DNA of 64,000 nt from Glycomyces albidus (GTDB taxonomy: Bacteria > Actinomycetota > Actinomycetes > Mycobacteriales > Micromonosporaceae): NCBI RefSeq assembly GCF_009451885.1, contig NZ_WIAO01000005.1, positions 1 through 64,000 of the forward strand, given 5' to 3'. A program made the translations under genes and the position numbers. Below, piece by piece: positions 11,360 to 15,834 of this stretch; the stretch's first letter is position 1; the number at the start of each line of letters is the position of its first letter. A model generated the notes under the pieces. The model was not told the origin of the DNA. It did no database searches and saw nothing but the letters and a program-made list of their open reading frames with translations.

Positions 11360-12048
11360 CCGACTGGAACGAGCGGGTGCGCGGCGCCCTCGGCGTCGAG
11401 CAGACCGGGACGGACGGCCCGCGCGCGGTCGCCGACGTCGACCCCAAGGACTGGCACGAGGCCGTCCGGGCCTGCCGCGACGTCCTCGGCTGCGACTTCT
11501 TCGACTGGCTCTCGGCCGTCGACGAGGGCCCCGAGGGCTTCCGCGTGGTCGCCCACGTCTGGTCGGTCGCCGAGAAGCGCGGCGTCCTCCTGCGCGCCCT
11601 CCTCACCGAGGGCGCCCTTGCCTCCGTCACCGACCTCTATCCGGGCGCGGACTGGCACGAGCGCGAGACCCACGAGATGTTCGGTGTCGACTTCCCCGGC
11701 CACCCCGACCTCAAGCCGCTCCTCCTCGCCCCCGAGTTCGAGGGACACCCGCTCCGCAAGGACTTCGTGCTCGCGTCCCGCGTCGTCAAGCCATGGCCCG
11801 GCGCGAAGGAGCCCGGCGAGGGCCACGGCACGGCCCGCAAGCGCGCCCCGAAGCGGCCGCCGGGCGTCCCCGAGGACTGGATCGAGCCGGAGCCGCAGGC
11901 GGCCGGCGGCGACCCGCGGGAACCGTCCGCCGGTCCCGGGGAACCGAAAGCCGGACCGCCGGCGGCCGCTTCCGGCGGCGCCCAGGCCCCCGCCGATCCG
12001 CAGGAACCCGCATCCGATCGGCGGACCGGGCGGCCCGATGCTCCTTGA
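11356..12048 (+). CDS. nuoC: NADH-quinone oxidoreductase subunit C
   Basis: The 230-aa protein carries the 30-kDa subunit signature [20 protein letters not shown], followed by [16 protein letters not shown]. It sits beside NuoD in complex I, but no nuoD is present here. After residue 155 the protein becomes a Pro/Gly/Ala-rich low-complexity tail of about 70 aa that is not part of the fold. The ATG overlaps the nuoB stop (ATGA), with GAGGAGG upstream. Confidence 0.9.
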
Positions 12049-12991
12049 GATCGCCGTCAAGGTCGCCGCCGTCATGGCCGCGTTCCTGGTCCTGCCCCTC
12101 CTCGTCGGCCAGACCGAGCACAAGCTCATGGCGCACATGCAGGGCCGGCTCGGGCCCATGCACGCCGGCGGCTTCCACGGCTGGGCCCAGCTGATCGCCG
12201 ACGGCGTCAAGTTCGCGCAGAAGGAGGACCTCGTCCCGGACGCGGCCGACAAGCCCGTCTTCAAGCTCGCGCCCGCCGTCGCGCTCCTGCCGTACCTCCT
12301 GGTGGTCCTGTTCATCCCGCTGGGCCCCGGCGACCTCGTCGGCTCCTCGCTCGACATGGGCCTGTTCGTGGTGGTCGCGCTCGTCGGCGTCGGCGTGCTC
12401 GCCGTCCTCATGGCCGGCTGGTCCTCCGCGAACAAGTACACGCTCATCGGCGCCCTGCGCGGCGCCGCGCAGCTCATGGCCTACGAGCTGCCGCTCGTGC
12501 TCGCGGCCGCGTCGGTCGCGGTCGCGGCCGGCACCCTGAGCCTGCCCGCGATCGTCGAAGCGTGGAACCCGTGGTGGCTCCTGTGGCAGGCGCCGGCGGC
12601 GCTCGTGTTCTTCACCGCCGGGCTCGCCGAGATCCGCCGGCCCCCGTTCGACGCGCCCGTCGCCGACTCCGAACTCGTCTTCGGCTACCTCACCGAGTAC
12701 GCCGGGCTCCGGTTCGCGCTGCTGCTCCTCGCCGAGTACGTCGGCATCGTCGTCATCTCCGCACTGACTGCCGTCCTCTTCCTCGGCGGCTGGCGGGGCC
12801 CTGGCCCCGAGTCGCTCGGCTGGCTGTGGACGCTCGTGAAGACCGGCGCGCTCGCGGCGGTCGTCATCTGGCTCCGCGTCGCCTGGCCGCGCCTGCGCGT
12901 CGACCAGATCCAGGCGCTGTGCTGGAAGGGCCTGGTCCCGATCGCCCTCGCCCAGCTCGTCGTCACCACCGCGGTCGTCCTCGCCATCTGA
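12038..12991 (+). CDS. nuoH: NADH-quinone oxidoreductase subunit H
   Basis: The 317-aa membrane subunit links the peripheral arm to the proton pump and lines the quinone chamber. Visible are MQGRLGPMHAGGFHGWAQ with ADGVKF, GWSSANKYTLIGALRGAAQ, and the acidic loop AEIRRPPFDAPVADSELVFG followed by TEYAGLRFALLLLAEY. About eight hydrophobic helices are seen. The start at ATG 12038 lies inside the nuoC tail, an 11-nt overlap. No ion-pumping subunits (L, M, N) follow; the next gene is a PBP-like protein 75 nt downstream. Confidence 0.92.
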   Translation: MLLEIAVKVAAVMAAFLVLPLLVGQTEHKLMAHMQGRLGPMHAGGFHGWAQLIADGVKFAQKEDLVPDAADKPVFKLAPAVALLPYLLVVLFIPLGPGDLVGSSLDMGLFVVVALVGVGVLAVLMAGWSSANKYTLIGALRGAAQLMAYELPLVLAAASVAVAAGTLSLPAIVEAWNPWWLLWQAPAALVFFTAGLAEIRRPPFDAPVADSELVFGYLTEYAGLRFALLLLAEYVGIVVISALTAVLFLGGWRGPGPESLGWLWTLVKTGALAAVVIWLRVAWPRLRVDQIQALCWKGLVPIALAQLVVTTAVVLAI

Positions 12992-13066
12992 GACCGGTCC
13001 GTCACGCTTCGGGTTGCCATGTGCGGCTTGGCAACCACTGCCTGAAAGCAGCGCGTCTAACGGGGT

Positions 13067-15220
13067 ATGGCAGGCCGACACAGCGCGCGCCGCACTGCCG
13101 CGGACGCAGCGAAGCAGCCGGATCCGAAGCGGCCGGGGCGGCGGCGCCGGGGACGCCGGCGCCTCATCGCACTCGGGCTGGTCCTGGCGATCCTCTCCGG
13201 GGCCGCGGTGGTCGTCGGCTCGGTCTTCTACGCGAGCGTGGACCTCCCCGACGAACTCGACTCGGCCCTCAGCCAGGGATCCACCGTCTACTTCAGCGAC
13301 GGCGAGACCGTCCTCGGCGAACTCGCCGCCGAGCGCCGCACCTCCGTCGGCCTCGACGAGATCGCCGACGACGTCCAGTGGGCGCTCGTGGCCGCCGAGG
13401 ACGCGGGCTTCTACGACCACCCCGGCGTCGACGCCAAAGGCGTCCTGCGGGCCCTCGTCAACAACGTCTCCGGCGGCGACCGGCAGGGCGCCTCGACCCT
13501 CACCCAGCAGTACGTGGGCCTGGTCGCCGACATCCGGGGCGACGGCTCCTACCTCCGCAAGGCCCGCGAAGCCGCGATGGCCATGAAGATGGAGGAGGAG
13601 TACACGAAGGACGAGATCCTCAACCACTACCTGAACATCGCCTACTTCGGGCGCGGCGCGTACGGCGTCGAGGCCGCCTCGCAGGCGTTCTTCGGCAAGC
13701 CCGCCGCCGACCTCTCGACCTCCCAGTCCGCGCTGCTGGTCGCCCAGCTCAAGTCCCCGGACGGCCCCTACGACCCGCGCGACCCCTACGGCCAGGGCGG
13801 CAGCGTCGAGGACGCCGCGGACCGCTGGGACTACGTCCTCGACCAGATGGTCGCCATCGGCAGGCTCGACCAGGTCAAGCGTGACGCGATCACCGAGCTC
13901 CCCGAGACCCTCGACCCCACCGACGACCCCGAGGGCCTCGGCCCCGAAGGGTTCGTCACCAACGGATTCGTCCTGCGCGAACTCGCCGACGCCGGGATCA
14001 CCACCGACGAGGTCATGCGGGGCGGCCTCGACATCACGACCACCCTCGACGCCGACCTCCAGGCCCTCGTCCTCGACCACAGCGGCATCCGCGGCGTCGC
14101 CGCCGCGGACGAGGACCTCGCGGCCGCACTGGCCGCCGTCGAGTCCGGCACCGGCCGCGTCCTCGCCTACTACGGCGGCGAGAACGGCGCCGGGCTCGAC
14201 CTCGCCGACGACGTCGGGCACCTCCCGGGGACCGCGTTCAACGTCGTCCCCGCCGTCGCCGCGATCGAGGCCGGGTACGACCCGTGGACGCAGACCCTCG
14301 ACGGCTCCTCCCCGCAGCGGTTCGCGACCTACCTCGACGAGGACGGCGAACCGAGGGATCTGGTCAACACCGGCGGCGCGTCCGACCCCGAGACGACCCT
14401 GCTCGCCGCGGTCATCGAGAAGCTCGACACGCCCGTGTACGCGGTCTCCGAGGACCTCGGCGGCGACCTGGTCGCCGCGACCGCCGAATCCCTCGGCGTC
14501 CGCACCTTCTGGGACCCGCACCGCCCCGACGACCAGGGCGTCCTCCCCGAGGTCGCGCCCGGCGGCGGCGCGTTCCAACCCGACGTCGGCATCGGCGCCT
14601 ACCCGGTCACGACCCTCGACACGGCCTCGGTGTACGCGACGCTCGCCTCCGGCGGGACCGCCGCCGAGCCGTTCTTCGTCGAGCGCGCCGACGGCCCCGA
14701 CGGCGTCGTCTACGAAGCCGAACCGCAGGTCACGGAGCACGCCGTCGATCCCGCGGCGGCCAACCTGACGGCGGGCGCCCTCCTCGAAGGCACGCTCGCG
14801 GACCAGGCGGAGCTGGGACTGCGCCCCGATCTCGGCGTCGGCTCGAACGCCTCCCCGACCTGGCACGCCGGATTCGCCGGGAGCCTCGCGCTCGCGGTGT
14901 GGGCCGGCGACGAGACCAAGGAGGGCGACGGCAGTTCGCCCGAGGGCACGCTCGCCGAATCGATCTGGTGGTCGATCGTGCGCGAGCGCCCCGACCGCTA
15001 TCTCGGGGAGCTGCCGCTCTGGGGCGGCGAAGGCGAGTCCGGAGTCGCCAACGAGTCGCCGGTCGACCCCGAAGGACTCGCCGGCTCCGAGGAGTCGAAG
15101 GCCGAGGAGAGCCGAGCCGAAGTGGAGCAGAGCCTGGAGGAATCCCAGCAGGGCTCCGACGAATCCGCGGAGTCCCCCGACGAGGCCGAGCCGGGCGCCG
15201 GCGGGCACGGCACCCGCTGA
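13067..15220 (+). CDS. Class A PBP-like peptidoglycan glycosyltransferase with degenerate transpeptidase domain
   Basis: The 717-aa type II membrane protein has an Arg-rich cytoplasmic tail, a helix at about 33-55 and a GT51 domain at about 75-240 with the catalytic Glu111 in AAEDAGFYDHPGVD, then GASTLTQQYV and YLNIAYFGRGAYGVEAAS. This half looks active and would polymerise lipid II. The transpeptidase half (about 320-615) keeps the fold landmarks but not the catalytic ones. The SxxK position reads TAFN (389-392), there is no SxN motif, and the KTG box reads SNAS (593-596). The C-terminus is a Glu/Ser-rich tail. It is probably monocistronic. Confidence 0.85.
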   Translation: MAGRHSARRTAADAAKQPDPKRPGRRRRGRRRLIALGLVLAILSGAAVVVGSVFYASVDLPDELDSALSQGSTVYFSDGETVLGELAAERRTSVGLDEIADDVQWALVAAEDAGFYDHPGVDAKGVLRALVNNVSGGDRQGASTLTQQYVGLVADIRGDGSYLRKAREAAMAMKMEEEYTKDEILNHYLNIAYFGRGAYGVEAASQAFFGKPAADLSTSQSALLVAQLKSPDGPYDPRDPYGQGGSVEDAADRWDYVLDQMVAIGRLDQVKRDAITELPETLDPTDDPEGLGPEGFVTNGFVLRELADAGITTDEVMRGGLDITTTLDADLQALVLDHSGIRGVAAADEDLAAALAAVESGTGRVLAYYGGENGAGLDLADDVGHLPGTAFNVVPAVAAIEAGYDPWTQTLDGSSPQRFATYLDEDGEPRDLVNTGGASDPETTLLAAVIEKLDTPVYAVSEDLGGDLVAATAESLGVRTFWDPHRPDDQGVLPEVAPGGGAFQPDVGIGAYPVTTLDTASVYATLASGGTAAEPFFVERADGPDGVVYEAEPQVTEHAVDPAAANLTAGALLEGTLADQAELGLRPDLGVGSNASPTWHAGFAGSLALAVWAGDETKEGDGSSPEGTLAESIWWSIVRERPDRYLGELPLWGGEGESGVANESPVDPEGLAGSEESKAEESRAEVEQSLEESQQGSDESAESPDEAEPGAGGHGTR

Positions 15221-15433: not shown

Positions 15434-15769
15434 CTATGCGGCCTTGGCGGTGGAGCTGGTGCTGGAGGACGCCGCCGCGGGCTTCGATTCGCTCTTCGAA
15501 CCGCTCGCGGCCGAGGACTCCGACTTCGACTCGCTCTTCTTCGCGCCGTTCTGCGACCCGTTCGAGCTGAGCGAGGACGAGTCCGTGGAGCGGGAGTCGG
15601 TGCGGTAGAACCCGCTGCCCTTGAAGGTCACGCCGACGTTCCCGAAGACCTTGCGCAGCGCGCCCTTGGCCTCGCAGTTCGGGCAGTCCGTCAACCGCGC
15701 TTCGGCGAACGACTGGTGTTTGTCGAACTCGTAACCGCACTCCTTGCAGCGGTATTCGTAGACAGGCAC
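15434..15769 (-). CDS. FmdB-family zinc ribbon protein (Ruc-like chaperone)
   Basis: The 111-aa protein begins VPVYEYRCKECGYEF and has a second CPNC knuckle, giving a four-cysteine zinc ribbon in the first 40 residues. It then runs into a long Ser/Lys/Ala-rich disordered tail. The mycobacterial homologue Rv0991c (Ruc) has been described as a redox-regulated chaperone whose gene is HrcA-controlled (from memory). Here a perfect CIRCE lies 39 nt upstream, supporting the same regulation. GTG 15769 is chosen because GGAGG lies 6 nt before it; the open frame continues upstream through the CIRCE but is not translated. Confidence 0.85.
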   Translation of the reverse strand: MPVYEYRCKECGYEFDKHQSFAEARLTDCPNCEAKGALRKVFGNVGVTFKGSGFYRTDSRSTDSSSLSSNGSQNGAKKSESKSESSAASGSKSESKPAAASSSTSSTAKAA

Positions 15770-15807
15770 GTCCAACCTCCAGGACTTCACACGGGACCGG
15801 ATCGACA

Positions 15808-15834
15808 TTAGCACTCAACACCGCCGAGTGCTAA
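15808..15834 (-). promoter_or_regulatory. Perfect CIRCE element (HrcA operator)
   Basis: TTAGCACTC-N9-GAGTGCTAA matches the CIRCE consensus at all 18 positions. It is placed to control the FmdB/Ruc-like gene. Confidence 0.92.

Follow-up and report, generated by a model that had tools for sequence, protein, structure and literature searches.

A gene in Glycomyces albidus encodes a class A penicillin-binding protein (PBP) whose glycosyltransferase half is likely active and whose transpeptidase half is almost certainly dead, judging from its sequence and from eight orthologues that share the loss. We propose that the protein is an envelope-stress-induced, penicillin-proof glycan polymerase, and that its strands are crosslinked by other enzymes, plausibly by an L,D-transpeptidase. 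We give this reading a probability of roughly 0.6.

The gene and its features

By "the window" we mean the whole 64,000-nt stretch of DNA that was analyzed. As a preliminary description of this DNA had stated, the gene lies directly after nuoH: 75 bp separate it from the end of nuoH (position 12991). Downstream, on the opposite strand, come a zinc-ribbon gene and one for a 5-FTHF cyclo-ligase. The features are as follows.

12038..12991, + strand: nuoH, the upstream neighbor in all nine genomes that carry the PBP gene
13032..13056, + strand: ECF-sigma-type promoter element CAAC-N18-CGT; 10 nt between CGT and the ATG (same spacing in 9/9)
13067..15220, + strand: class A PBP-derived protein of 717 amino acids, with an intact GT51 domain and an almost certainly dead transpeptidase (open reading frame, domain profiles, alignment)
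13169..13237, + strand: probable transmembrane anchor behind an Arg-rich N-terminus, residues about 35-57 (sequence judged by eye)
13307..13849, + strand: GT51 domain, residues 81-261 (PF00912 and alignment)
13397-13399 and 13568-13570, + strand: glycosyltransferase residues Glu111 and Glu168 (alignment)
14123..14986, + strand: pseudo-transpeptidase domain, residues 353-640 (profile, AlphaFold model, structure matches)
14231..14242, + strand: TAFN (residues 389-392) replacing SxxK (alignment with active class A PBPs)
14420..14431, + strand: KLDT (residues 452-455) replacing SxNT (alignment with active class A PBPs)
14843..14854, + strand: SNAS, at the likely structural position of KTG (AlphaFold model; sequence aligners place it after KTG)
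14987..15217, + strand: acidic, fast-evolving C-terminal tail, residues 641-717 (similar tail in 9/9 orthologues)
15434..15814, - strand: zinc-ribbon protein, the downstream neighbor in carriers and non-carriers alike

The protein matches the GT51 profile (PF00912) with 184.2 bits, while its match to the transpeptidase profile (PF00905) is 20.2 bits, below the cut-off of 22.1. It also falls below the cut-offs of two family models: TIGR02074 (the PBP1A family; 278.7 bits against 508.75, a cut-off that may simply be strict) and TIGR02070 (monofunctional glycosyltransferases; 115.5 bits against 182.65). Including this gene, the genome encodes six GT51 proteins.

Loss of the transpeptidase motifs

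We aligned the protein with active class A PBPs and with its orthologues. At the place of SxxK, all nine orthologues (counting the window's) have T[AS]F[NS]; the window protein has TAFN where active relatives have SSFK or STFK. Similarly, at the place of SxN, all nine have [KR]LDT, with KLDT in the window and SxNT in active relatives. KTG is replaced by [VST]NAS in all nine (SNAS in the window). In all nine, the transpeptidase half is thereby left with neither its nucleophilic Ser nor the Lys that acts as general base. Sequence aligners pair KTG with GLR or a gap and pair SNAS with residues after KTG, so the KTG position is not settled by sequence alignment alone. The other five GT51 proteins of the genome keep all three motifs (one has KSG for KTG).

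A nearby Ser/Lys pair could in principle stand in for the missing nucleophile. In the window protein, residues 353-640 contain two lysines in all and no S..K. L010 and L014, two of the eight other orthologues, do have an S..K; it aligns with window residues 623-626, beyond the final predicted sheet strand (607-615) and off the SxxK helix. The motif losses named in the preliminary description stand for SxxK and SxN, and the alignment with class A PBPs also bears out the missing serine in the homologues. A sequencing artefact is ruled out by the loss being common to eight orthologues with 62-68% identity over the alignment. As every member of the clade shows it, the loss must be older than their last common ancestor.

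We surveyed 114 aligned class A PBPs, and all three motifs were kept in 100. The exceptions number 14: the nine orthologues, three database copies that duplicate three of the nine, L101 (whose sequence is cut by a contig end), and L027. Of 12 further class A PBPs, 10 are intact (two by eye) and two are dead. L027, from another genus of the same family, has ATFK for SxxK and ISG for KTG and keeps SxN; in the gene tree, it is placed apart from the Glycomyces clade. L206 and L208, two class A PBPs from one genome in a different family of the order, have a shortened transpeptidase half with an altered SxxK and without the SxN region or KTG. It seems that class A PBPs with dead transpeptidases have evolved on two or more occasions.

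Predicted structure of the pseudo-transpeptidase

An AlphaFold model of residues 59-645, built from a 110-sequence input, has a pLDDT of 90.4 and a pTM of 0.83. (A model from the nine orthologues alone was unusable, with a pLDDT of 36.8.) The best VIA-align (VIA-align 2) match was the transpeptidase domain of PonA1 from M. tuberculosis (Z 37.5, rmsd 2.7 over 332 residues, 25% identity); E. coli PBP1b and A. baumannii PBP1a matched about equally well. By E-value, the best Foldseek match was 3dwk (PBP2), and the matches from both tools are class A PBPs. This confident model retains the transpeptidase fold.

The model also bears on the KTG position. It has a strand at residues 591-595 (VGSNA), a three-residue turn, and another strand at 599-604. 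Judging from this list of strands, the two would pair as the beta-3/beta-4 hairpin that carries KTG. Placing SNAS at the KTG site, as the preliminary description did, is thus structurally reasonable in the model, even though the sequence aligners place it elsewhere.

Conservation of the glycosyltransferase half

Glu111 and Glu168, which we take to be the catalytic residues of GT51, are kept in all nine orthologues, so the glycosyltransferase site is intact by sequence. Most residues of the GT51 motifs are also among the invariant positions of the orthologue alignment, in line with the description's claim that this half retains Glu111 and the donor-site motifs.

We compared selection on the two halves with that on an active paralogue that the nine carriers also encode, which has intact transpeptidase motifs in 9/9. 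We used the Nei-Gojobori method, and since dN/dS is inflated in these very GC-rich codons, the values should be read only relative to the control: median values over 36 pairs were dN 0.082 and dN/dS 0.29 for the GT51 domain and dN 0.328 and dN/dS 0.70 for the pseudo-transpeptidase, versus dN 0.107 and dN/dS 0.42 (glycosyltransferase) and dN 0.223 and dN/dS 0.51 (transpeptidase) for the control. The GT51 domain of the dead-transpeptidase protein has the lowest dN/dS of the five regions that we measured. Its codons are conserved, and those of the pseudo-transpeptidase are relaxed but not neutral. Glycosyltransferase activity is likely. Together, the orthologues, the model, and the selection patterns support the original combination of a retained glycosyltransferase with a dead transpeptidase.

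The preliminary description had left a choice between a polymerase that does not crosslink and a scaffold. As a scaffold or regulator, the pseudo-transpeptidase would dock partners or sense muropeptides, and glycosyltransferase activity would be minor. The retention of the fold in the model fits this idea, as do the unusual residues of the old active site that are invariant in 9/9 (H385, T389, L453-D454-T455, and N594-A595-S596) and the lysine at the place of the SxN serine (arginine in one orthologue). On the other hand, both glutamates are kept in all nine, and the pseudo-transpeptidase evolves faster than the active transpeptidase (median dN of 0.33 vs. 0.22). Of the two putative roles, polymerization with no crosslinking is a better fit than scaffolding alone, since constraint is strongest on GT51 among the five regions. 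We consider a mainly scaffolding or regulatory role unlikely.

Distribution and history of the gene

We searched for orthologues in the window genome and 60 relatives, and then in 22 Glycomyces genomes. Nine of the 22 (including the window's) carry the gene and 13 lack it. All nine carriers have the same gene order: nuoH, the PBP gene, the zinc-ribbon gene, the FTHF ligase gene, and a gene for what we presume from its motif to be a GGDEF-type protein. In 12 of the 13 non-carriers, nuoH and the same neighbors are present and the PBP gene is missing from the spot; in the other (G020), we found no match to nuoH.

On a tree of neighboring proteins from 21 genomes, four changes in presence or absence are needed. 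Given the root as drawn, which was not inferred from the data, a simple history would be a single gain followed by three losses. The absence of the gene from 13 of 22 genomes and the four changes imply that it is dispensable. In the gene tree, the nine form one clade (SH-aLRT 99, by a quick method), which is nested in a 16-row clade (SH-aLRT 98) of otherwise active PBPs. The other members of the larger clade are two paralogues from the window genome, two rows from Stackebrandtia, and three other active rows; the tree leaves the nearest sister of the nine unsettled.

We also looked at what non-carriers have after nuoH. In one of them (G018), the 532-bp spacer contains CAGC-N18-CGT, a carrier-like start, and an acidic reading frame that resembles the tail. 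BLAST gave a match of 73% over 60 bp. It may be a scar from deletion of the gene and is the sole such candidate among the non-carriers, but the evidence is suggestive only. In three others (G010, G013, and G004), by eye, an ORF resembling a PIN-type toxin and a small antitoxin-like ORF occupy the spot. It is as if the position after nuoH takes inserts.

This history raises the possibility that a class A PBP is being lost, transpeptidase half first. The repeated changes in presence, the possible remnant in G018, and the relaxed pseudo-transpeptidase are what decay would predict. However, the reading frame is open, with no internal stop, in 9/9 carriers, third-position GC in the window gene is 0.98 in the glycosyltransferase and 0.95 in the pseudo-transpeptidase, and the promoter is conserved (see below). 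Also, the median dN/dS of the pseudo-transpeptidase is 0.70, and the same motif loss, clade-wide, is older than the common ancestor of the nine. We think that decay is quite improbable.

It is even harder to believe that T389 and K452 form a new nucleophile pair with some other acyl-transfer or hydrolase activity: all nine orthologues have T389, and the SxN position is conserved as K or R, but R (in L010) is a poor base, the SxxK lysine has become N or S, and the KTG anchor is gone.

A promoter element shared with an L,D-transpeptidase

The element CAAC-N18-CGT precedes the PBP gene in all nine carriers, with CGT 9-10 nt ahead of the start codon. At the distance of 10 nt in the window, the mRNA may be leaderless. 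The window genome has two YkuD genes. One of these, an L,D-transpeptidase with Big_10 and YkuD domains, is preceded by the same element. This L,D-transpeptidase is present in 22/22 Glycomyces genomes (23 loci), and the element lies 45-47 nt before its TTG start at 23/23 loci, although the rows are related and neither 9/9 nor 23/23 counts independent events. The pattern picked up this gene through a chance GTG in its leader; the TTG, which opens a frame of 383-386 amino acids at all 23 loci, is the likely start. (Seven of the rows showed one internal stop because our query began upstream of the TTG.) G002 has a second copy of this L,D-transpeptidase (L196) with the CGTA version of the element.

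In the PBP promoters, the -10 element is CGTA in six of nine and CGTC in three; before the L,D-transpeptidase, it is CGTC at 22 of 23 loci. The sigma-E promoters of S. coelicolor in Table 1 of PMC6767563 resemble these in having AAC and CGTC, separated by a spacer of 16-17 bp. Compared to that form (AAC, TC, 16-17 bp), the PBP promoters have AAC and the spacing in 9/9, TC in 3/9, and TA in 6/9. The window promoter has CAACC and CGTC and is counted in the 17-bp spacer class. According to the same source, the sigma-E regulon of S. coelicolor includes L,D-transpeptidases and PBPs.

How specific is the element? It was found in 0 of 80 control upstream regions (four neighboring genes at 20 loci, with approximate starts), but these include nuoH, which is inside an operon, and some may hold no promoter. 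It was also absent from 11 of 11 non-carrier spacers (a twelfth, of 12 bp, was dropped). We found 13 occurrences in 620,038 positions: eight are the carriers' PBP promoters and five are elsewhere. The window itself has two, versus 6.25 expected, so frequency alone is uninformative, and it is the place and the conservation that are informative.

Across the window genome, the promoter-plus-start pattern has six matches. Based on the reading frames, we take three of these to be real gene fronts: the PBP gene, the L,D-transpeptidase, and a gene for a MacB-like ABC ATPase (L167, identified by eye), where the pattern is at the apparent start. The remaining three do not resemble gene starts and were rejected. 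The strict element is absent before the second L,D-transpeptidase and from the stretches we fetched upstream of the genome's other five class A PBP genes (for two of the genes, the stretch starts at a contig end). With a relaxed pattern, two of the five have hits, which lie 963, 855, and 88 nt upstream of the GT51 match.

Proposed role

We propose that the protein derives from a bifunctional class A PBP and is now a membrane-anchored peptidoglycan glycosyltransferase that would polymerize lipid II into glycan strands. It should be unable to crosslink the strands or to be acylated by beta-lactams. The pseudo-transpeptidase may have been kept for folding, docking, or regulation. From the shared promoter element, we infer that an envelope-stress-type ECF sigma factor could switch on the PBP and the L,D-transpeptidase together. 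The L,D-transpeptidase and/or other PBPs would then crosslink the strands that are made under stress. Both the stress control and the partner are less direct conclusions than the state of the two domains, and the presence of the L,D-transpeptidase in all 22 genomes, which makes it independent of the PBP gene, is a point against the pairing. The dispensability of the PBP gene, the CGTA in six of its nine promoters, and the missing strict element before the second L,D-transpeptidase also count against our reading.

Precedents from other bacteria point both ways. The S510A mutant of E. coli PBP1b is reported to still support growth by the L,D-transpeptidase YcbB under beta-lactam (PMC5089857), and PMC4632607 describes a pneumococcal class A PBP2A with a mutated transpeptidase that feeds class B PBPs. 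Against easy coupling, the latter source also reports that E. coli PBP2 left the strands of a transpeptidase-dead PBP1A uncrosslinked and that crosslinking was not significant when transpeptidase-dead PBP1B was mixed with a glycosyltransferase mutant.

A more specific version is possible but doubtful: in Glycomyces, the polymerase with its disarmed transpeptidase and the L,D-transpeptidase would be a co-regulated, penicillin-insensitive stress pair, with the pseudo-transpeptidase as a docking or control surface.

These proteins bear on the question of why the two activities of class A PBPs stay combined in a single polypeptide. They offer a natural, clade-wide uncoupling, with active paralogues present and with promoter evidence that points to an L,D-transpeptidase. 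This makes it possible to test what the transpeptidase fold does once it is non-enzymatic, and whether evolution in bacteria yields penicillin-proof polymerases that serve as a backup under stress.

Comparison with known systems

Like the bifunctional class A PBPs (such as PonA1 from M. tuberculosis or PBP1b from E. coli), the window protein has an anchor (by eye), GT51, a linker, and a predicted transpeptidase fold; unlike them, it has lost all three catalytic motifs of the transpeptidase. Its predicted activity, glycosyltransfer without transpeptidation, is that of the monofunctional glycosyltransferases (MgtA/SgtB type), but it retains what appears to be a folded transpeptidase domain, and a tail.

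Natural class A PBPs that lack SxxK are also reported from Streptomyces (13 of 100; PMC6273383). In contrast to the Glycomyces proteins, these mostly conserve SxN and KTG, and their authors think that PBP function is possible. The section of that paper on SxxK-less class A PBPs mentions no link to a promoter or a partner. Beyond this paper, no title or opening of an abstract among the papers listed in our literature search, whose library misses many subscription journals, indicated a natural class A PBP with a dead transpeptidase. Within the same scope, we met no report of a clade that lost all three motifs or of the promoter pairing, and nothing on topic for Glycomyces and penicillin-binding proteins.

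As a working model, the closest likeness is to E. coli PBP1b S510A with YcbB, as described in PMC5089857, where a class A PBP with only its glycosyltransferase feeds an L,D-transpeptidase. PBP1b S510A is a laboratory point mutant, whereas the Glycomyces protein is natural. If the doubtful idea of a co-regulated stress pair is correct, then Glycomyces would have a natural counterpart of that laboratory system.
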